Positions 2,113-35,161 of a stretch of 64,000 nt of DNA are shown here, one piece after another. The stretch comes from Balneolaceae bacterium (GTDB lineage Bacteria > Bacteroidota > Rhodothermia > Balneolales > Balneolaceae). The translations under genes were made by a program, and so were the position numbers. Within the stretch, counting starts at the first letter, position 1; every line of letters begins with the position of its first letter. A model generated the notes under the pieces. That model saw only the letters and a program-made list of their open reading frames with translations. It was not told where the DNA came from and did not search any database. The stretch is from contig JAEPNO010000008.1 of NCBI GenBank assembly GCA_017643365.1, forward strand, positions 1 through 64,000, written 5' to 3'.

Positions 2113-3423
2113 GTGATTAAAACGTCAGAAATATGGGTAGATGAAGAAGGATCAGCGCTTAGTTCAGTGCTCATTATTTCTGTAATAATCCTCACTTTTA
2201 TAGGTGCCATTCTATCCGGGGTATTATTGCAAGCTCGCTTTATCCAGCGGGATATTAATCAAACCAAAGCCATATATGCCGCCGAACAGCAAGTATTTGA
2301 GTACCTGAATAATCCTGAAATTCTACACCCCGCAATTCAAACCAATTTTTTAAATGGTTTTGAACGAGTACAAAGTAAAGCAACTGTTGGCCATGCAACC
2401 GTAACCATTCAGGCCTTGGTTGGAGAAACAACTACCTTGCCCTTTCAGCTTTCTACCGTAGTGTTAGATTCCAGAAATACCCTCACTTTAACAGGTAATA
2501 CTACTTTAAAAGGGGATTTCTCCATTTCCAATAACGACATCACCACTAGTTCCTTTCGGGGTTTTCCATTTCGTGGGACTTTAGAAGGTAGTCCGGCAAA
2601 AGATACCGTAGTGGTAGCACTGGATTATGCAAAATATCAGAAAAAGTATGAGGCGTATAAAGCACTGTTTGAGGAAGCAGACTTGAACCGATTTCAGATC
2701 AAAAATCAAACCCCCATTCAATCGCAGCTCGCAGAAAGTGATAGTGATACGCTATATATCTCTGAATCATTAGAACTCGAATTAGGAGCTGAAGAACAAT
2801 CAGAGCCCATTACCCTCATTGTTGAAGGGAATTTGTTATTAAGCGGGGCTATGAAGTTCCCGGATTTCAGCGAGATCATTGTAAGCGATAGCTTAGCAAT
2901 TTCTGGTGAGCTAAAGGGTAATTTTATTCAAATCTTTGCCGGGGATTACCTCAGCATAAGCGATGATGTTCAATTATCTGTACAGGTCATTTCCGGAGGA
3001 AGTATCGAAGTTAATGATCGGGCATACGTAACCTACCCGAGTGTATTGTATAGCCAAAAAGATGCATTTGCTGGAGGTTCAAGATCCGCAATTACAATTA
3101 ACGATCAGTCAATAGTAGATGGAACTATTTTATTTCCTATCAAGCCTAGTTTAATCAATCAGGAACAGTTGAAAGTCACGGTAGATACCACAGCATTAGT
3201 TCGTGGAGCAATTTATACCAAAGGATTGACAGAGCTATTTGGAAGCATTCATGGCACTGTAATCACGAATCAATTTTACTTTTATGAATCCCCCACCTCC
3301 TATTTTAACTGGATAAAAGACGCGACGATAGATCTCACTCAACGTCCAAAAGAGTATGTAGTACCGATTGGTTTTTCAGACTCACTTAGGTTTAAAATCC
3401 TAGACTGGAGGATCATCGAATGA
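2113..3423 (+). CDS. PilX/GspK-like prepilin with beta-rich body
   Basis: A 436-residue protein opening with a GTG codon. Residues ~11-37 are a prepilin-type segment ('DEEG' then 'SALSSVLIISVIILTF'): a Gly cleavage site followed by a hydrophobic helix, without the Glu at +5 that major pilins carry. Lack of Glu5 is typical of PilX/GspK minor pilins that sit at the fibre tip. The rest (~90-420) is rich in short alternating beta stretches ('LIVEGNLLLSGAMKF', 'IQIFAGDYLSISDDV', 'GTVITNQFYFY') resembling a bactofilin or polymer-forming beta-solenoid, which is unusual for a minor pilin. Its stop overlaps the next gene's start (ATGA), so it heads a four-gene operon ending with the GspF-like protein. 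Type II secretion or type IV pilus assembly is the likely setting; the substrate is unknown. Confidence 0.6.
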   Translation: MIKTSEIWVDEEGSALSSVLIISVIILTFIGAILSGVLLQARFIQRDINQTKAIYAAEQQVFEYLNNPEILHPAIQTNFLNGFERVQSKATVGHATVTIQALVGETTTLPFQLSTVVLDSRNTLTLTGNTTLKGDFSISNNDITTSSFRGFPFRGTLEGSPAKDTVVVALDYAKYQKKYEAYKALFEEADLNRFQIKNQTPIQSQLAESDSDTLYISESLELELGAEEQSEPITLIVEGNLLLSGAMKFPDFSEIIVSDSLAISGELKGNFIQIFAGDYLSISDDVQLSVQVISGGSIEVNDRAYVTYPSVLYSQKDAFAGGSRSAITINDQSIVDGTILFPIKPSLINQEQLKVTVDTTALVRGAIYTKGLTELFGSIHGTVITNQFYFYESPTSYFNWIKDATIDLTQRPKEYVVPIGFSDSLRFKILDWRIIE

Positions 3424-3770
3424 AGTGCTGGAAAGAAGAAGATGGAGCGTCACTGGTAGAAACGTTAGTAGCAATGGCCATTCTATTGGCGGTATTGGTG
3501 CCTTCAACTATGTTTCTTACGTATATTGGAAGCAATTGGTTGGTTAAGGATAAAGCGGAAGGTTTTCAGCTGGCTCGAAACGAGATGGAAAGTATTATTG
3601 CTACCGAGAACGATTCAAGTTTGGTCCGTTCTGAAGGGAAATGGATAGTAAAACGAACGGTTACAAATCAGGAAGAACTATATTATGTTACTGTGGATGT
3701 GTTTAAAAGAGATACAACAAACTCACCGATTATTACACTGGAGACTGCTCGCATTTGGTACAACAAATAA
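3420..3770 (+). CDS. Prepilin-type pseudopilin (GspI/PilV-like)
   Basis: A 116-residue protein with a textbook class III prepilin leader: the charged stretch 'KEEDG' followed by 'ASLVETLVAMAILLAVLVP'. Cleavage after Gly would leave Ala1 with Glu5 five residues on, as needed for pilin assembly and N-methylation. The rest is a short globular region with beta strands ('GKWIVKRTV', 'EELYYVTVDVF'), the size range of GspI or PilV minor pseudopilins. The ATG overlaps the stop of the upstream PilX/GspK-like gene by four bases, and the 3' end overlaps the next pseudopilin gene, so all are translationally coupled. No prepilin peptidase is visible nearby. Confidence 0.8.
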   Translation: MKCWKEEDGASLVETLVAMAILLAVLVPSTMFLTYIGSNWLVKDKAEGFQLARNEMESIIATENDSSLVRSEGKWIVKRTVTNQEELYYVTVDVFKRDTTNSPIITLETARIWYNK

Positions 3771-4228
3771 TTTATAACAAAGACGGATATACGGTAGTGG
3801 AGATACTGGTAGCACTTACTCTACTTACCTTCATTTCAGCCATCGTTGGAAGTGTGTTTATATTCACTGCTCGACAAATGAATAACTGGAAGGAATCGGT
3901 AAACTCGATCAATGAGGCGCATATTGTTACCGAGCGTTTGTATAAGGATGCTTTACGTTCGAATCAAATTCAAGCAACAGATACGAGTCTGGTGTTCAAT
4001 CACCCGGGCAATCGATCCATTCAATATTCGAACTTGAATCATAACCTGATACGCAATAGAGTTCAGCTTTCCGATCAGGGTGATAGTTTGTACTTCAAAG
4101 AGATTAATATTAGTGAAGAAATGAGTCGGTTTGAGATTCAGCATGTAATTGATGATGCATCGAATACACATTCTGTGGTTGTAGCCAATCGACAGCCAAA
4201 ATTATGGGAGGCGGTAAGCAGAGATTAA
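3755..4228 (+). CDS. Prepilin-type pseudopilin (GspJ/PilW-like)
   Basis: A 157-residue protein with the prepilin signature 'NKDGYTVVEILVALTLL': Gly before the cleavage point, Glu5, then a hydrophobic helix to about residue 35. Size and order after a GspI/PilV-like gene fit a GspJ/PilW minor pseudopilin. The earliest start in this frame is a TTG at 3755 inside the upstream coding sequence (16-bp overlap). A pilin leader needs only a few residues before 'KDG', so this start is reasonable but not proven. The stop codon overlaps the ATG of the GspF-like gene (TAATG). Confidence 0.75.
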   Translation: MVQQIIYNKDGYTVVEILVALTLLTFISAIVGSVFIFTARQMNNWKESVNSINEAHIVTERLYKDALRSNQIQATDTSLVFNHPGNRSIQYSNLNHNLIRNRVQLSDQGDSLYFKEINISEEMSRFEIQHVIDDASNTHSVVVANRQPKLWEAVSRD

Positions 4229-5349
4229 TGGGATTACCTCCAACTATACAAAAGCTTGAAAAGAAAAAGGGTAAATCAACCGGTGCAAGGGATATTGAAA
4301 TCCCGTTTCTGCCTTCTATTCCACAAAAACTAGTCATAGAGTTTACTCGGAATTTAGCGGTGATGCTCAAGGCCCGACTTACTTTACTGAAGTGCCTGGA
4401 TACCGCAATCCAACAAACTACGCATGCACGTTTTTTGGAAATCCTAAAAGATATTCGATCAAATGTGAAGAGAGGGAAAAGTCTGTCTCAGGCGATAGCG
4501 AAACATCCCAAAGTATTTGATACCGTTTTCATTCAGCTTACGAAAGTGGGGGAACTATCCGGAAATTTAGATGATGTATTGTTGCGGATGTCGAAGTATC
4601 AGGAAAAGGCATACAAATTAATGCAATCAATTCGAATGGCCTTAGTATATCCGGCCATCATCATCACGGTAGCCGTAGCAGCAGTAAGTTTTCTTTTGGT
4701 ATTTGTGGTACCAACCTTTGTTGATATGTACCGAGATTTTGAAGCGGAACTCCCGGCACCTACCTTACTCATACTTACCGTTAGTGACTTCCTTACCAAT
4801 TATCTCCTATGGATTCTCGGGGGAGTGATAGTGATCGGGTTTTTCATCCGTAATTACTCCAAGACAGACAATGGGAAGGCTTACATAGATCGAGCAAAAC
4901 TAAAGATCCCATATTTTGGTGAAATGTATAGAAAAGGGCTGATTAGTCAGTTTTCAGATACCTTATCGACCTTGCTTTCTAGCGGCGTTACCCTCACAGA
5001 TTCCCTAAAAGTATTAAAAGACTCCTCGCAGAATATGGTGCTTCAACAAGAGGTGAGTAATTTGCTCAGCTCAATCAAAAAAGGAAGGAGCATCAATAAG
5101 TCATTATCAAAGTCGACCATCTTTCCTTTGATGGTTACACAAATGATTAGTGTTGGAGAAGAGACAGCCAGCTTGGATGAAATGCTAAAGCAAGTAGCAG
5201 TCCTTTTCGAAGAGGAGCTGGACATGATGGTTGAAGGATTAACTTCTGTTATCGAGCCGGTTCTCATCGTTTTTATCGGTCTCATCATCGGAGTAATTAT
5301 CGTAGCTCTTTACCTACCTATTTTCGAGATGGTAAATGTGATTGGGTAG
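4228..5349 (+). CDS. Type II secretion / type IV pilus inner-membrane platform protein (GspF/PilC family)
   Basis: About 373 residues if translation starts at the ATG that overlaps the preceding stop (TAATG); an in-frame ATG 24 bp upstream is possible but lies inside the previous gene. Two T2SSF domains are evident. The first ('FTRNLAVMLKARLTLLKCLD', 'KRGKSLSQAIAKHPKVFD', 'VGELSGNLDDVL') is followed by a hydrophobic pair ('MALVYPAIIITVAVAAVSFL', then a segment near residues 195-215). The second ('QFSDTLSTLLSSGVTLTDSL', 'MISVGEETASLDEML') ends in a C-terminal helix ('VLIVFIGLIIGVIIVALYLP'). GspF/PilC is the platform that couples the assembly ATPase to pilin polymerisation. The operon has pseudopilins but no ATPase, secretin or peptidase here, so those must lie elsewhere. 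Confidence 0.9.
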   Translation: MGLPPTIQKLEKKKGKSTGARDIEIPFLPSIPQKLVIEFTRNLAVMLKARLTLLKCLDTAIQQTTHARFLEILKDIRSNVKRGKSLSQAIAKHPKVFDTVFIQLTKVGELSGNLDDVLLRMSKYQEKAYKLMQSIRMALVYPAIIITVAVAAVSFLLVFVVPTFVDMYRDFEAELPAPTLLILTVSDFLTNYLLWILGGVIVIGFFIRNYSKTDNGKAYIDRAKLKIPYFGEMYRKGLISQFSDTLSTLLSSGVTLTDSLKVLKDSSQNMVLQQEVSNLLSSIKKGRSINKSLSKSTIFPLMVTQMISVGEETASLDEMLKQVAVLFEEELDMMVEGLTSVIEPVLIVFIGLIIGVIIVALYLPIFEMVNVIG

Positions 5350-24588: not shown

Positions 24589-25407
24589 GTGCAAAACACA
24601 GATAAAATTAAGCAGTTAGTAGAGCAGATTGTCGAATCTGTAAGTTCGGTAGGATATCAAGGAGAAGTTGAACAACTCCGTGATAAGTATTCAAAGCTTA
24701 AGACAGTTCATCAACTTCAAAAAAGTATTGTGCGCCAAAATATGCATAATGCGATGTCGCCATTGAGTGCCATTTCAGGATATCTAGAACTAATTAATAT
24801 GGCGCTGCTTTCGGAGCCTGATTATGAGCAGATTGAGCACTATCGGAAAAAAATTGAATCAGGCATCCAAGAAGTAAATACAATTCTTGAACAGCTTCAG
24901 GGAATTTATAACGACGAATCAGATTTGGTGACAACCGACGAGGTTGACACCTTCCTGGATGTTGATTTAAACTGGTTGGTTCGAGATGTTTGTTCGAAAA
25001 TGCACTTCACCGATTCTGACTTAAAGTTGGAAATGAAAACGATTTCGTTGCACGTACAAACCGATGTGTTTATCTCAAAACTCATCATATTTAATTTGAT
25101 CAATTATGCATCCAAGTGTAGTTCTCAAAAAGAACCGTTATCTCTAATTACCAACGAATCAAATCGAGCTGCTGAATTTATTATCGAATTCGAAGTGGTT
25201 GATCAAAAAAAAGTTGAAATAGCCCGGGTTATCAAATCTGCAAACAGTATTAGCAAAAGTTTTGAGAGTAATAACTCGTTCGACGAAGGACTACTTACCA
25301 GCGTTAAACTAGCGAAAGAAATTTTCGCGAATATTAGTTATCTGGGCTTACAAGAGGGGGAAATTCAAATCAAATTATCAATTCCGATGGCTAAGACTAA
25401 AGATTAG
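24589..25407 (+). CDS. Histidine-kinase-like protein with degenerate ATPase domain (possible phosphotransferase)
   Basis: 272 residues from a GTG preceded by AGAAG. After a coiled-coil (~20-45) there is a DHp-type helix with the phospho-His motif 'NMHNAMSPLSAISGYLELI' (residues ~49-68). The ATP-binding part is eroded. In the N-box 'FNLINYASKCS' the metal-binding Asn of the usual NA pair is Tyr; no DxGxG is present; and the G2 region reads 'FDEGLLTSVKLAKEI' instead of a GxGLGL. A dimeric DHp bundle with a dead ATPase domain is the plan of Spo0B and ChpT, which only shuttle phosphate. No sensor or membrane segment is seen. Its 3' end overlaps the tail of the opposite-strand gene by 4 bp. Confidence 0.6.
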   Translation: MQNTDKIKQLVEQIVESVSSVGYQGEVEQLRDKYSKLKTVHQLQKSIVRQNMHNAMSPLSAISGYLELINMALLSEPDYEQIEHYRKKIESGIQEVNTILEQLQGIYNDESDLVTTDEVDTFLDVDLNWLVRDVCSKMHFTDSDLKLEMKTISLHVQTDVFISKLIIFNLINYASKCSSQKEPLSLITNESNRAAEFIIEFEVVDQKKVEIARVIKSANSISKSFESNNSFDEGLLTSVKLAKEIFANISYLGLQEGEIQIKLSIPMAKTKD

Positions 25408-25811
25408 CCTTGAACATCAATCCAGCTGCCTGCCGGATTTTCGTAATTCATTATTTGATTGAAATAATTCTGATGGCGCTTAAAATCACGCTGACTATAA
25501 TCAGAATCTGCGTCGTTTGCGGAGTTCACATAAGCAAAAGGATGTGCCCTTTGTTGAGTTAAAAAACTTAACTCTTGGTACCCATCTGAGATTGATTGAT
25601 GAATTTCTTGAGCACTATTTGAGCGGAAAAATTCTCCGGATGCTTTGTTTTGTTTTGCAGAAACTTGATCAAAAGTACTACCGGCTTGTCTCTTTGCTTG
25701 ATGCTTTTCTTCCACTCCTTTTACACTTCTCGTGTAAACGGTGCCAGTAGTTAAATAAGAGGAACCGGAAACGGATACCATTGAACCGCGTCCATCATTA
25801 TTTATACTCAT
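25404..25811 (-). CDS. Small hypothetical protein next to the chemotaxis block
   Basis: A 135-residue, Ser/Gln-rich, hydrophilic protein of no family I recognise. It has no signal peptide or membrane segment. The C-terminus 'NYENPAGSWIDVQG' ends in a Gly-x-x-(aromatic or hydrophobic)-Asp-x-x pattern that is also at the end of the small orf between flgC and fliE ('RGSNFDARV'). A weak sigma-28-like box lies upstream on its strand (ACCGATAA at 25898-25891, with poor -35). The position suggests a motility-related role, but that is inference. Confidence 0.5.
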   Translation of the reverse strand: MSINNDGRGSMVSVSGSSYLTTGTVYTRSVKGVEEKHQAKRQAGSTFDQVSAKQNKASGEFFRSNSAQEIHQSISDGYQELSFLTQQRAHPFAYVNSANDADSDYSQRDFKRHQNYFNQIMNYENPAGSWIDVQG

Positions 25812-25960: not shown

Positions 25961-26078
25961 TTGCGTTGATAGGACTTTTTCTAGGCAGTTGAATAGAGAT
26001 ATCCTACAACCAATAAACCAAGTTATAGTCCACCTTTGGACAACAAATTATATTTCGCGAGCAAAAGAGGAGAACTTT

Positions 26079-26522
26079 ATGAGCACAATTAGAGCACTTG
26101 TAGTCGATGATTCTAAAATTATGCGGAGCCAAGTTAAACGGGCTTTAGATCAGGTAACCATAGCAGAATTTGAGTATGAAGAAGCAATGGATGGTGAGGA
26201 TGCTTTGGAGAAATTTAACGACGACATCGATATGCTGTTTGTGGATTGGAATATGCCAAAAATGACCGGCGTTGAGTTTGCACGTGCTGTTCGCGATCAA
26301 GGCTACGAGCACATCCCCATTATTATGGTTACTGCAGAAAAATCGATGGGTAAGGTAGATAAAGCACTTACAGAAGGTGGTGCTGATGAGTATATCACCA
26401 AACCATTTACGGCTGAAAAAATGAGCAGTACAATCGCGAAATTTTTCGATGAGCGCGGAAATTTAATTACTGGCGAGCCGGAAGAAGAGAAGAAAAGCTT
26501 CTTTAGCAGCATCCTTAAATAA
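26079..26522 (+). CDS. cheY: CheY-type chemotaxis response regulator
   Basis: A 147-residue single receiver domain starting at an ATG with a good ribosome site (AGGAG, 6 bp away); a longer upstream frame exists but lacks support. Phospho-Asp56 lies in 'MLFVDWNMP', the acidic pair is Asp10/Asp11, with Thr85 ('IIMVTAEKS') and Lys108 ('YITKPF'). CheA would phosphorylate it and it would bind the flagellar switch. Unusual is a ~20-residue tail ending 'EEEKKSFFSSILK', longer than in standard CheY. First gene of a likely operon with cheX, cheA and cheR. A second CheY lies at 33972. Confidence 0.92.
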   Translation: MSTIRALVVDDSKIMRSQVKRALDQVTIAEFEYEEAMDGEDALEKFNDDIDMLFVDWNMPKMTGVEFARAVRDQGYEHIPIIMVTAEKSMGKVDKALTEGGADEYITKPFTAEKMSSTIAKFFDERGNLITGEPEEEKKSFFSSILK

Positions 26523-26537
26523 ATTGGGAACGGTACA

Positions 26538-27038
26538 ATGATTACAGAACAGTTAAAACAAGCCAAAGAAATCCCAGTTGAGATTGTTGAAGTAGTGAAA
26601 CAATCGGTGATCAATACATTTGAGTCTATTGCCGGAGAGGCTCCTACTTTAGTGTTTGATGATACAGAAAATGGCCCATTAAACGGCGTAATTGGCAATA
26701 TCGCAGTGTTTAATCCAGAGTATACATTCTCGCTAATGTTGGTTATTCCAAAAGATACAGCCATCAAAATCTCTGAAGCTTTTCTTGGGATGGAACTCTC
26801 TATTGAAAGTGAAGATATGGGCGACTTAATCGCAGAGTTATCGAATATACTTGCTGGCGAAGTGGCTGCAAATATGGAAACAGTAGGTTTTCGTGGACAG
26901 TCATCACTTCCTACAGCAACACGCGGGAGCGATTTACGCTTGTTTATGCCAAATAAGCCACCATCAGCAAAACTACGCTTCGAAGGTAATGTTGGTGACT
27001 TTCTATTGAATATGGCGTTAAGCGAATCTAGACAATAG
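26538..27038 (+). CDS. cheX: CheX/CheC-family chemotaxis phosphatase
   Basis: A 166-residue protein of the CheC/CheX/FliY phosphatase superfamily. The active-site helix is 'DLIAELSNILAGEVAANM', which holds the Glu-x-x-Asn pair used to attack the phospho-Asp of CheY. Only one such helix is present, as in CheX (CheC and FliY can have two). The surrounding pattern, a strand with 'NGVIGNIAVF' and 'FSLMLVIPKDTAI' before the helix, fits the fold. It lies 15 bp after cheY and 42 bp before cheA, so it should terminate the signal made by this operon. Confidence 0.85.
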   Translation: MITEQLKQAKEIPVEIVEVVKQSVINTFESIAGEAPTLVFDDTENGPLNGVIGNIAVFNPEYTFSLMLVIPKDTAIKISEAFLGMELSIESEDMGDLIAELSNILAGEVAANMETVGFRGQSSLPTATRGSDLRLFMPNKPPSAKLRFEGNVGDFLLNMALSESRQ

Positions 27039-27080: not shown

Positions 27081-30000
27081 ATGAGTAACGATAATACCCA
27101 AGTTGTAGATGAACTAGCTCAAATTATTCAGCTACTAGCTGATGTGTGGCCAACAGACCGTGAAAACGTAGCTATAGCGGGCGCTAAATTTGAAAGTGTG
27201 ATCGAAAGTTTTGATCAGGATTTCGGACATATTCAAAAACTGGCAACTCTCGCGTGGGAAGGCATTAAACACCTTTATGAAAAAGATGAATTCTTCATGG
27301 AAGTGAAAGCCACGACCATGCAGTCTATAAATCTATTTCGCGAGTTCATTCTAAATGATGGTGATATTAAAGTTGAGGATTTTGATAAAGCTTTTGCTGA
27401 GTTAAATAAGGCCTTAAATGGCGGTAAGGAATCTGCAGATAAGATCATTAGCGAAGAAGAATTGGAAACACTGAGTTCGAAAGATGAGGTTCCTTCAAAT
27501 GCTGATTCAGAACCTAATGTTGCTCAAGTTGATGCCGATCAGATGCCGGATGAAGTAGCATCAATCATCCAATTACTTGCCGATGTGTGGCCAAATGATC
27601 GCGAAAATGTTGCTAAAGCCGGGGCCAAGTTCGAACAAGTAGTAAGCAGTTTGGAGAATATTTCCGGGCAGTTGCAAAAACTTATCGATCTGGCCTATCA
27701 AGGAATGATGCATCTTTACGAAAAAGATGACTATTTCATGGAAGTAAAAGCTACTACCATGCAGGCTGTAAATCTTTTTAGAGAATTCATCCAATCGGAA
27801 GAAGACGTTACTGTTGATAATTTCGAAAAAGCATTTTCTGAGCTGAGTAAAGCGTTAGAAGGTGGAAAGAAATCTGCGGATACAGTTATCTCTGAGGAAG
27901 AACTTGAAGATTTAAAGGCTAAGGAAAAGCAAGCAGCAAAAAATAGTGACGCTGTAAACGAGGTAGCTGAAGACGTTCGGGTAGAAATTGCTGAAATCAT
28001 CAGTCTACTCGAAAATGTTTCTCCTACAGATCGAGAAAATGTGGCCCAGGCAGGAGCGAAATTTGAGCAAGTAGTAAGTGGACGAAAACGCATTTCCGGG
28101 CAAATGCAGAAGCTATCAGATGCGGCGTATCAAGGGATCATTCATCTTTATCAAAAAGACGAACATTTTGAAGCTGTAAAAGCGGCCACCATTCAGGCCA
28201 TTTCTATTTTTAAAGAGTTTACCCAACCTGATGCTGATGTAAGTGTTGACGATTACGAAGATGCACTTCATGGCATCGAAAAGGCATTAGCCGGTGAAGT
28301 TGAGAAAAGCCAGGATATAAGCGATTCTACGTCGGTTCCAACTGATTCCACGATGGATGACTTATCAACGCATTTGATGATGATTGATGAGTCGTCGGAT
28401 AGAGCGGAAATTGAACTTCTTGCCGGATTTTTAACAAATTCTGCAGCGAACGAAATGGGAGAAGCTGCCGAAGAATTAAAGAGTGCATACGAAATTGTTG
28501 AAAATGTACTCGCCGGAAACGATGTAGATGCAGGCTGGCTGAACATAATTTCAGCTCATATCGAAAAAGCCGAAGAACATGCAGCAAATCTTGAGTGGGA
28601 AAACTCAATGATCGAGCATGATGAGGAATCTGCATCACCCAAAGAAACAGTAGATGCTGAAGTGGAAGTTGAAGAAACTCCTGTAGTAACTTCGCCGAAA
28701 AAAGTTGAATTAACTCAGGCCCCATCATCCGAATATTCATCGGTATTTCTAATTCCGGAAGATATCGATATTTCAATGGTTGGTGAGTTCATTACAGAGT
28801 GTAGCGAGCTAATTGAGTCGGCCGAAAGTGCCTTGCTTGAACTGGAAGACAAACCGGATGATAACGAGCTTGTAAACACTGTTTTCCGTGCTTTTCATAC
28901 CATAAAAGGTACATCGGCATTTATGGGGCTAGATCCTATAACGGAGTTTACTCATCATGTAGAAACAGTATTAAGCATTGTGCGTGATGGTGATTTACCC
29001 TTCGACCGAGCGTGTGCAGATATCAACTTCGAATCGATTGATATTATTAAAAAGCTGCTTAGCACGGTTGAGAATTGCAATGGAGGAGATCCACTTCCGG
29101 TTCCAAACAACTACAAAAGTATGATGCGTGTGTTGGTAGATGTGGCTGATAATAAAGTGCCACCGGCTGATGCATTAGCTAAAGAAGGAGAGGCTGTTCG
29201 CCCGGTTGCAACCGAAGAGTCGGCCACTAACGAAGATTCTCGGGTTGATTCACCAACCGGCAGTACGGTAAAAGGTGCCAAAAACGAAGCAGAAGAAACT
29301 GGCAATACCAATCAAAAAAATGATACCGAAAGCTCTGTTCGGGTAAGTGTAAATCGTCTGGATCGATTAATTGATATGGTTGGAGAACTTGTGATTGCAC
29401 ATTCGGTAGTGGCACAAGATCCGAATATTTCAAAAGACACTGAGCTTCAAAAGAAAGTAAACCACGCTACTAAAATTCTTCGCGAATTACAGGATACCAG
29501 TTTAACTCTTCGGATGGTTCCGCTTAAAGCAACTTTCCATAAAATGAATCGACTAGTTCGCGATTTATCGAGAAAAGCAGCCAAAAAGGTGAAATTTAAC
29601 ACGGTTGGTGAAGATACAGAGATCGATCGAAATATGGTTGATATCATTAACGAGCCGTTAATTCACATGCTGCGAAACTCGTTAGATCATGGTATTGAAA
29701 CCACCGAACAGCGTGCCGAAACCGAAAAACCCGAAGTGGCAACTATTACTCTTCGTGCATTTCAAGAAGGTGGTAAAGTTGTTATTCAAATTCAGGATGA
29801 TGGCCGTGGCATCAACAAAGATATTATTCTTCGAAAGGCCATCGAAAAAGGGCTCATCGATCCTGATAAGAAATTAACCGAGTCAGAAATTTATGGGCTG
29901 ATTTTTCTTCCGGGATTTTCATCTGCCGAAAAGGTTACCGATTTATCAGGTAGAGGCGTTGGAATGGATGTTGTTCGCCGTTCTATCGAAGAGCTTCAAG

Positions 30001-30467
30001 GGAAAATTGATGTAAGTTCAGAACTTGGGGTTGGAACAACTATCACTATCGAGCTGCCATTTACCTTAGCCATTACCGATGGCATGTTGATAAGAGTTGG
30101 CGAGGAACGATTTATAGTGCCAACGATTAACATCGATATGACATTTAGAGCTCAACCTGACGATTTGTTCACGGTGCTGGGCGAAAACGAGCAAGTGTCG
30201 TTTCGCGGGAAATCTGTTCCTGTAATCCGTCTACATCAATTGTTCGAAATTGATAATGCCATTGAAGACATCATGGAAGGAACCCTGTTGGTTATTAAAA
30301 GCAATAATGATCGTTATGCCCTCTTGGTAGATGAAGTGATTGGGCAGCAGCAACTGGTGGGTAAGTCAATAAATATGATTGCACCAACCGAACATATATC
30401 CGGAGGCGCAATTCTAGGTGATGGTCGCGTTGGATTAATTTTAGACACCGCTGCTCTAATTCAGTAG
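27081..30467 (+). CDS. cheA: Chemotaxis histidine kinase CheA with three N-terminal tandem domains
   Basis: 1128 residues, against ~650-750 for usual CheA. Residues 10-~130, 157-~280 and 301-~415 are three repeats of one helical unit, each with '(T/N)DRENVAxAGAKFE' and 'HLYxKDxxF' followed by 'VKAxTxQAxxxFxEF'. I do not recognise the unit. A further helical stretch covers ~420-490. The canonical CheA parts follow: an Hpt domain with phospho-His606 ('FHTIKGTSAFMG'), an acidic linker, the dimerisation domain from ~750 ('VNRLDRLIDMVGELVIAHS'), the kinase domain ('PLIHMLRNSLDHGIE', 'DDGRGIN', 'SGRGVGMDVV') and a C-terminal CheW-like domain. No clear CheY-binding P2 domain was seen. It phosphorylates CheY and CheB on receptor signals. 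Confidence 0.95.
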   Translation: MSNDNTQVVDELAQIIQLLADVWPTDRENVAIAGAKFESVIESFDQDFGHIQKLATLAWEGIKHLYEKDEFFMEVKATTMQSINLFREFILNDGDIKVEDFDKAFAELNKALNGGKESADKIISEEELETLSSKDEVPSNADSEPNVAQVDADQMPDEVASIIQLLADVWPNDRENVAKAGAKFEQVVSSLENISGQLQKLIDLAYQGMMHLYEKDDYFMEVKATTMQAVNLFREFIQSEEDVTVDNFEKAFSELSKALEGGKKSADTVISEEELEDLKAKEKQAAKNSDAVNEVAEDVRVEIAEIISLLENVSPTDRENVAQAGAKFEQVVSGRKRISGQMQKLSDAAYQGIIHLYQKDEHFEAVKAATIQAISIFKEFTQPDADVSVDDYEDALHGIEKALAGEVEKSQDISDSTSVPTDSTMDDLSTHLMMIDESSDRAEIELLAGFLTNSAANEMGEAAEELKSAYEIVENVLAGNDVDAGWLNIISAHIEKAEEHAANLEWENSMIEHDEESASPKETVDAEVEVEETPVVTSPKKVELTQAPSSEYSSVFLIPEDIDISMVGEFITECSELIESAESALLELEDKPDDNELVNTVFRAFHTIKGTSAFMGLDPITEFTHHVETVLSIVRDGDLPFDRACADINFESIDIIKKLLSTVENCNGGDPLPVPNNYKSMMRVLVDVADNKVPPADALAKEGEAVRPVATEESATNEDSRVDSPTGSTVKGAKNEAEETGNTNQKNDTESSVRVSVNRLDRLIDMVGELVIAHSVVAQDPNISKDTELQKKVNHATKILRELQDTSLTLRMVPLKATFHKMNRLVRDLSRKAAKKVKFNTVGEDTEIDRNMVDIINEPLIHMLRNSLDHGIETTEQRAETEKPEVATITLRAFQEGGKVVIQIQDDGRGINKDIILRKAIEKGLIDPDKKLTESEIYGLIFLPGFSSAEKVTDLSGRGVGMDVVRRSIEELQGKIDVSSELGVGTTITIELPFTLAITDGMLIRVGEERFIVPTINIDMTFRAQPDDLFTVLGENEQVSFRGKSVPVIRLHQLFEIDNAIEDIMEGTLLVIKSNNDRYALLVDEVIGQQQLVGKSINMIAPTEHISGGAILGDGRVGLILDTAALIQ

Positions 30468-32434: not shown

Positions 32435-32899
32435 ATGATTACTACATACACTGAAAACATACACGATATTGCACTAAACACCTTTGAAGTTACTTGCTTC
32501 ATGTTTCCTATGGATGAGTGGGAAATTGAAGAGGATGAATTAGAATATCCTGATGGTAGTACCAGATCAATTGTAGAATTTGAAGGCGCAGCTCAGGGCG
32601 CTATGATGATTAACCCAAACGATTCGTTGCTCACTGCCATTGCTGCAAATATGCTCGGTATCGATGAGCCATCGGAAGAAGAAAAAGAAGGCGCTCTTTG
32701 CGAGATTGCAAATATCATTTGTGGCAACACTGTGCCAATTTTTGCAAAGGATGACAAAATATGTGTTATCAAACCACCTAGAATTGCAGAACAAGACGAA
32801 GATGCTGCAACCTTATTTCCTAACCTTCATCATGAAAAGGTAAATGTGCTGTTGGATGAAGGCATCGTAGAAATTTCAATTTATGTGGAGCAAGACTAA
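32435..32899 (+). CDS. Second CheX/CheC-like phosphatase domain protein
   Basis: A 154-residue, strongly acidic protein. The helix 'EGALCEIANIICGNTVPIF' carries the Glu-x-x-Asn pair expected of the CheC/CheX superfamily. A strand ('GAAQGAMMINPNDSLLTAIA') precedes it as in CheX, and the end 'NVLLDEGIVEISIYVEQD' is a plausible closing strand. It is more divergent than the protein at 26538. The last base pairs overlap the cheB start (TAATG), so the two are coupled. Likely a CheY-P phosphatase or a regulator of CheD. Confidence 0.75.
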   Translation: MITTYTENIHDIALNTFEVTCFMFPMDEWEIEEDELEYPDGSTRSIVEFEGAAQGAMMINPNDSLLTAIAANMLGIDEPSEEEKEGALCEIANIICGNTVPIFAKDDKICVIKPPRIAEQDEDAATLFPNLHHEKVNVLLDEGIVEISIYVEQD

Positions 32900-33971: not shown

Positions 33972-34358
33972 ATGGCTATAAATATATTAGTTGTAGACGA
34001 TAGCGCAGTAATGCGCAGTATGATTAAGAAAACCATCCGAAATAGTGGAGTGGAAGTAGGCGAGATTTTTGAAGCCGGAAACGGACAGGTTGGGTTAGAT
34101 ATATTAGCTGAAGAATGGCTAGACATTCTATTTATAGATGTGAATATGCCTATAATGGATGGAATGGAAATGCTCGCTCGAGTTAGAAAAAATCCAGATA
34201 CCGTTGATCTGCCCATTTTAATTGTCTCTACCGAAAGTAACCCCGAACGTATCGAGAAGATTCAAAAGTTGAATGCAGGTTTTGTTCACAAACCGTTTAC
34301 TCCAGAAATTTTACGTGAGCGAATTTTAGAAGCTCTTGGGGTATTAGAGAGCCAGTAA
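33972..34358 (+). CDS. cheY: Second CheY-type response regulator
   Basis: A 128-residue stand-alone receiver: acidic pair at Asp9/Asp10, phospho-Asp56 ('ILFIDVNMPIMDG'), Thr87 ('LIVSTESNP') and Lys107 ('VHKPFTPE'). It lacks the long tail of the first CheY. Two CheY proteins often divide roles, one driving the motor and the other acting as a phosphate sink; which is which is not readable here. Last gene before a terminator. Confidence 0.93.
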   Translation: MAINILVVDDSAVMRSMIKKTIRNSGVEVGEIFEAGNGQVGLDILAEEWLDILFIDVNMPIMDGMEMLARVRKNPDTVDLPILIVSTESNPERIEKIQKLNAGFVHKPFTPEILRERILEALGVLESQ

Positions 34359-34606: not shown

Positions 34607-35161
34607 ATGCCCAATCATATAAACGTCTTAAACAGAGAAATGATGGAAGAACAAATTGCTGAACAAGAACTTACACATTCGAATGGAGTTGCCGTAAAAG
34701 GCGGTAAGTTTTTAAGCTTTTTTTTGGGCAACGAAGAATATGCTATCGAGATTTTAAAGGTTCAGGAAATTATTGGGTTACTGCCCATAACACCGGTGCC
34801 GAAAATGCCGGATTATGTTCGTGGGGTGCTAAACCTTAGAGGAAAGATTGTTCCGATTATGAACCTTAGAGTTCGATTCGGTTTACACACCATAGAGGAT
34901 ACCGAAGAAACATGCATCATTGTAATCCAGGAGGAAAAACACTTGATGGGCATTGTGGTAGATAAAGTATCGGAGGTGGCTGATTTAAAAGCTGAGCAGA
35001 TCGAAAAAATTCCATCTTTTGGCATCACAGGAAACAGCGAATATCTGACGGGCATTGGGAAATTAGAGGATTCAGTTAAAATGATTCTAGATGTGCACAA
35101 AGTAGTATTCGATGTGCCAACGGAAGTTAAAAACGCAAACGGCGAACCCGCTACCGTATAA
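34607..35161 (+). CDS. cheW: Chemotaxis coupling protein CheW
   Basis: A 184-residue protein with a ~30-residue N-terminal extension before the CheW SH3-like fold: '[20 protein letters not shown]', '[20 protein letters not shown]' (family signature), '[21 protein letters not shown]' and '[20 protein letters not shown]'. It links receptors to CheA. Transcribed from its own promoter, followed 19 bp later by the receptor gene. Confidence 0.96.

Follow-up and report, generated by a model that had tools for sequence, protein, structure and literature searches.

The CheA encoded in the 64,000-nucleotide window analyzed here (Balneolaceae bacterium, contig JAEPNO010000008.1) carries three tandem units ahead of its Hpt (P1) domain. 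Most likely, these are not functional Hpts and not a new fold without relation to Hpt either, but copies of an order-specific pseudo-P1 domain that was multiplied in this genus. Because the P1 fold was predicted for the unit and a Glu falls in the register of the phosphorylated His, we consider the units to be pseudo-P1 domains, with the CheA P1/Hpt fold and a phosphomimetic Glu replacing His, at a probability of approximately 0.85 on the strength of the structural model.

Tandem units of CheA and their distribution in Balneolales

The host genome (Balneolales, 3.77 Mb) has one detected CheA, which is located in a chemotaxis cluster for CheY, CheX, CheA, CheR, CheD, CheX, CheB, CheY, CheW, and MCP (Table 1). 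The true Hpt of this CheA matched the Pfam Hpt profile with an E-value of 7e-16, whereas the P2 / CheY-binding Pfam profile matched neither the units, nor the whole CheA, nor the relatives scanned. The cluster includes two CheX phosphatase genes (26538-27038 and 32435-32899), the first of which lies directly 5' of cheA, and a CheY gene is found near each. Just 5' of the che cluster, a gene at 24589-25407 (+) encodes a 272-aa protein with a HisKA-like helix pair (HNAMSPLSAI...), for which the Pfam HisKA match (E 4e-4) was below the cut-off; the protein has no recognised ATPase domain and resembles a degenerate histidine kinase or phosphotransferase. A 135-aa ORF on the opposite strand of the che region (25404-25811, -) showed no family match. 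The MCP ORF as called overlaps the end of cheW (35112-35161), and a later ATG (MSIKEKVQ...) is the probable MCP start.

Table 1. Positions in the window of cheA, the domains and putative pseudo-P1 units that it encodes, and the CheY genes of the cluster.
Feature	Position	Strand	Description
cheA	27081..30467	+	1128 aa; order: putative pseudo-P1 x3 - D2 - Hpt (P1) - linker without P2 - P3 - P4 - P5
Unit 1 (u1), putative pseudo-P1 domain	27102..27428	+	Residues 8-116; corresponds to the sole copy of other Balneolales
Glu38 codon (GAA)	27192..27194	+	Phospho-His position in unit 1
Unit 2 (u2), putative pseudo-P1 domain	27543..27869	+	Residues 155-263; third copy, which may derive from a u3/u1 crossover
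Glu185 codon (GAA)	27633..27635	+	Phospho-His position in unit 2
Unit 3 (u3), putative pseudo-P1 domain	27975..28301	+	Residues 299-407; the most divergent unit; clusters with copy 2 of G002
Glu329 codon (GAG)	28065..28067	+	Phospho-His position in unit 3
D2, separate helical domain	28344..28610	+	Residues 422-510; once per relative; profile homology to the CheA N-terminus in another class
True Hpt (P1)	28776..29069	+	Residues 566-663; phospho-acceptor His606 in FRAFHTIKGTSAFMGL, codon at 28896
P3 dimerisation domain (H-kinase_dim)	29331..29501	+	Residues 751-807
P4 kinase domain (HATPase_c)	29655..30065	+	Residues 859-995
P5 CheW-like domain	30081..30464	+	Residues 1001-1128
CheY genes of the cluster	26076-26522 and 33972-34358		

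The three units occupy the first ~407 residues of CheA and align with one another without gaps over ~110 aa. Amino acid identities were 64% (u1-u2), 57% (u2-u3), and 50% (u1-u3), and the corresponding BLASTP E-values of 1e-50, 3e-35, and 1e-30 were far beyond chance. The initial annotation, which had placed three tandem repeats ahead of the Hpt at 27108-28330, was correct to within a few residues: the repeats span 27102-28301, starting at about residues 8, 155, and 299, and the motifs reported for them (DRENVAxAGAKFE, HLYxKDxxF, and KAxTxQAxxxFxEF) were present. The domain size of ~145 residues given there corresponds to the spacing of the repeats and not to the domain itself, which is a folded unit of ~110 residues. 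An acidic linker follows each unit, and the two inter-unit linkers comprise 35-38 residues. Misassembly is an unlikely source of the array, because the unit copies share only 58-69% DNA identity and the congener G002 has two units.

The repeat region was searched for in this genome and 97 relatives (98 genomes in total). The unit was detected in 26 of them, every time at the N-terminus of a CheA, and the count of units in related CheAs that had been proposed as a check gave one copy in relatives outside the genus, two in G002, and three in this genome. The view that CheA normally has nothing before the Hpt does not hold in the order Balneolales, where one unit consistently forms the N-terminus of all close CheA relatives. 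Within this genome set, the unit was absent from CheAs belonging to other classes, among them the second CheAs of G061 and G064, and a profile of 29 units detected nothing outside Balneolales when run against the phylum (394 genomes). Across 84,980 species, a pattern scan, which detects only fairly close relatives, returned 21 loci in records labelled as members of Balneolales, Balneolaceae, or Balneolia and in two Bacteroidetes bins that probably correspond to the order members G061 and G064.

In the phylogenetic tree, all additional copies fell inside this genus: u3 paired with u2 of G002, u2 was basal to this pair, and u1 and the G002 u1 were placed outside. Judging from the unit counts of the relatives and the tree, the unit characterises one CheA class throughout the order and is ancestral there, with copy number alone being new here. 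These data supported the proposed origin of the repeats by duplication. The ranking of repeats 1 and 2 as the closest, with repeat 3 having drifted, agreed with the identities, but in the tree u3 grouped with the second copy of G002. Unit 2 resembled a mosaic with a u3-like 5' half and a u1-like 3' half at 18 of 24 informative sites (permutation p 0.05), which is no more than suggestive of an origin by unequal crossover. A CheA of the same class in another genome (L095 of G096; 2887-5211, -) has its true Hpt in tandem, as two almost identical domains that each retain the His; these represent an independent and apparently recent duplication of P1.

The helical domain D2, located between u3 and the Hpt, is distinct from the repeats and had been overlooked in the initial annotation. 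It matched no known family, and every relative has a single copy. By profile comparison, the N-terminal domain in CheAs of another class (L083, L087, and L092, from sister families) is related to D2 (hhalign E 1e-6, 91%) and not to the repeat unit. Because of this homology, D2 may predate the pseudo-P1 domain.

Predicted fold of the unit and the residue at the phospho-His position

Comparisons of the unit with Pfam, NCBIfam, and PDB sequences, using both single sequences and profiles, yielded sub-threshold matches only, and profile searches thus agreed with the earlier description of the unit as unrecognised by sequence families. Pfam Hpt (PF01627) was not among the families listed at E-values of up to 1 for 29 members and up to 10 for three units, and hhalign of the units against the Hpt of the same proteins gave a probability of 1.4%, with nothing against D2 either; a forced global alignment was uninformative. 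TPR_NPHP3 was rejected as the unit family, since its match (E 2.5e-4) scored 20.9 bits against a cut-off of 100 bits.

The AlphaFold2 (AF2) model of unit 1, built from an alignment of 29 homologous units, comprised five main helices with a pLDDT of 85.6 and a pTM of 0.80. Foldseek alone found no significant match for this model (best E 0.9). Structural comparison by VIA-align over 993 chains placed exclusively CheA P1 domains (1i5n, 2lp4, 3kyj, 8c5v, 2ld6, and 1tqg) or P1-derived designs (6ff6, 3u3b, and 6fes) in rows 1-9. The P1 domains in the top rows are those of Salmonella, E. coli, R. sphaeroides, and T. maritima, and the designs were traced to P1 by their sequence match with the Hpt of this CheA (E 9e-18 for 6ff6, 1e-11 for 6fes, and 1e-5 for 2lch/3u3b). 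Against Salmonella P1 (1i5n), the model gave a Z-score of 14.6 and a deviation of 2.2 Å over 114 residues, fifth helix included. In the calibration of the tool, chance matches between helical bundles attain Z ~14. A Z-score of 14.6 alone is therefore not decisive, and the case for the P1 fold is based on how coherent the top rows are, together with the register. The five-helix P1 arrangement (four-helix bundle plus helix E) was present in the predicted model.

The pattern P-x-D-x11-Glu is invariant in every unit, and an equally spaced P-x-D/N-x11-His is found in the true Hpt of these CheAs. For a register test, the model was trimmed to begin at Asp26, with the prior prediction that it would start at residue 36 of 1i5n if the Glu corresponded to the His. 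The start of the trimmed model was aligned to residue 36 in 1i5n, as predicted, and in 8c5v, and to residue 39 in 3kyj and 3kyi; CheA P1 domains filled the first four VIA-align rows. Twelve residues further along helix B, presuming that this helix is gap-free, Glu38 falls on His48 of Salmonella and E. coli and on His51 of R. sphaeroides CheA3, which are the phosphorylated residues of E. coli CheA (PMC5705603) and R. sphaeroides CheA3 (PMC2817712).

Glu occupied the phospho-His position in all units (35/35), in keeping with the earlier claim that they lack a phosphorylatable His, and the flanking Gly at -4 and Ala at -3 were invariant or nearly so (one Ser at -3). The units thus have no phospho-accepting His in helix B, and the H-x-x-K-G motif is likewise absent, with Ile, Val, Thr, Met, or Ser at +3 and mostly non-Gly residues at +4. 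At the level of the predicted structure, this combination of an Hpt fold with a non-phosphorylatable residue at the His position is that of a pseudo-Hpt. Glu at the Hpt His served as a phospho-mimic in the engineered AHP1-H79E (PMC3166298). The statement of the initial annotation that the units are not extra Hpt domains, which a match of the unit to Hpt was to overturn, consequently stands at the level of sequence profiles but not at that of the predicted fold, where a match to CheA P1/Hpt was obtained both in the fold and in the residue register, with Glu at the His position.

Possible roles of the putative pseudo-P1 units

The best overall explanation, to which we assign a little less than even odds, is a degenerate P1 with an invariant Glu that acts through non-productive P1-P1/P4 packing. 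In the CheAs of E. coli and T. maritima, P1 domains pack on each other, and the E. coli P1 dimer shows non-productive P4 binding, with helices A and B forming the P1-P1 interface; this state may hold the kinase off (PMC10653900). The plant pseudo-Hpt AHP6 is a repressor (PMC12785465). By analogy, we tentatively infer that the pseudo-P1 units act by joining such P1-P1/P1-P4 packing. Unable to accept phosphate, a unit would nevertheless behave as a P1-shaped ligand, and its Glu would keep it permanently charged in a phospho-His-like manner. The flexible acidic linkers would tether the units to the same CheA dimer, where they could use helices A and B to enter the kind of non-productive P1-P1 and P1-P4 packing described for the E. 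coli and T. maritima kinases, compete with or wedge the true P1 (His606), and thereby set the kinase gain. An increase from one to three copies would raise the local concentration of this brake. The conserved helix C-D residues Trp59, Gln81, Asn84, Arg87, and Glu88 are unexplained by the P1-P4 model.

Conservation in helices C and D also bears on a role in scaffolding or partner binding, in which the P1 fold would have been reused for receptor tips, CheX, CheD, or a polar or flagellar protein via the helix C-D surface, and additional copies would provide avidity. The strongly conserved polar residues of this surface (His/Tyr64, Asp69, Lys76, Gln81, Asn84, Arg87, and Glu88), the bead-on-string layout with acidic linkers, and the order-specific presence of the unit are consistent with such a role; nevertheless, we regard it as rather unlikely, and it leaves unexplained the invariant Glu at the phospho-His position with its near-invariant Gly/Ala flanks. 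A further possible role is the docking of response regulators: the units would stand in for the P2 that was not found in this CheA or the relatives scanned, and their Glu face would mimic phospho-P1 and keep unphosphorylated CheY, or else CheB, close to the true P1, with more copies offering more sites. Such docking agrees with the binding of a Glu-mimic AHP1 Hpt, whose affinity for the unphosphorylated ETR1 receiver was ~4x that for the phospho-mimic receiver (Kd 3.6 vs 16.3 uM; PMC3166298), as would be required of a docking site, and with the known duplication of a docking domain, P2, in Borreliales (PMC10782961). However, more than half of CheAs are without P2, and no substitute is required (PMC10782961). 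Furthermore, the CheY contacts of helix B and the B-C loop in the CheA3-P1/CheY6 complex are located at +5, +8, +9, and +10 from the His (PMC2817712); these positions are invariant or near-invariant Thr, Phe, Met, and Gly in the true Hpt, whereas the units have varied, largely polar residues there. The conservation pattern therefore lends no support to the earlier suggestion that the units could bind CheX or CheY, and we judge docking to be unlikely. Because the CheY-contact positions are degenerate and the helix-B Glu patch is invariant, packing on P1 and P4 is favoured over CheY docking.

A four- or five-helix bundle that merely resembles P1, with a coincidental Glu at the His position, would fit the undetectable sequence homology to Hpt, and up-down helical bundles are common folds. 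This is highly improbable, given that P1 domains nearly monopolise the top structural rows with their fifth helix included, that the P-x-D-x11-[His/Glu] spacing is common to the units and Hpt, that the unit and P1 occur in one protein, and that His-less Hpt-like domains are known in CheAs (PMC10782961).

Non-productive packing may further be extended to a copy-number-adjustable, lineage-specific CheA brake, in which the tandem phosphomimetic pseudo-P1 domains would fill the site of non-productive P1-P4 contact and control the kinase gain. We consider this extension doubtful. If true, the brake would be a natural split of the regulatory (non-substrate) role of P1 from its role as a substrate. 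A question in chemotaxis is whether P1 does more than carry phosphate, for example in dimers, P4 sequestration, or kinase damping, and a clade with one, two, or three P1-shaped domains with a fixed Glu would make a non-substrate role of P1 directly testable.

Comparison with known systems

The units resemble the CheA P1 domains of Salmonella (1i5n), R. sphaeroides CheA3 (3kyj), and T. maritima (1tqg) in the predicted five-helix arrangement, the P-x-D start of helix B, the spacing to the active residue, and the location in CheA. They differ from these P1 domains in the Glu replacing the phospho-His, the absence of the Lys and Gly of HxxKG, the degenerate CheY-contact positions, and the absence of a Pfam Hpt match. 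The designed repeat proteins BRIC1 and BRIC2 (6ff6 and 6fes) show a sequence match to CheA P1/Hpt, whereas the units are natural, separate domains on acidic linkers. AHP6 is, like the units, of the HPt type without His and acts in a phosphorelay (PMC12785465); however, it is a separate plant protein with a reported repressor role, whereas an inhibitory role of the units is inferred. ChpA, the Tfp CheA of P. aeruginosa, and R. sphaeroides CheA3 similarly contain degenerate, His-less Hpt-like domains within a CheA (PMC10782961). Those domains occur in a Tfp-class CheA amid many Hpts or in a split CheA, whereas the present units are N-terminal in a CheA with one working Hpt, order-wide, marked by an invariant Glu, and detected as Hpt-like only at the level of the fold. 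His-less Hpt-like domains are already known in other CheAs (PMC10782961), and the units of Balneolales add a variant to them.
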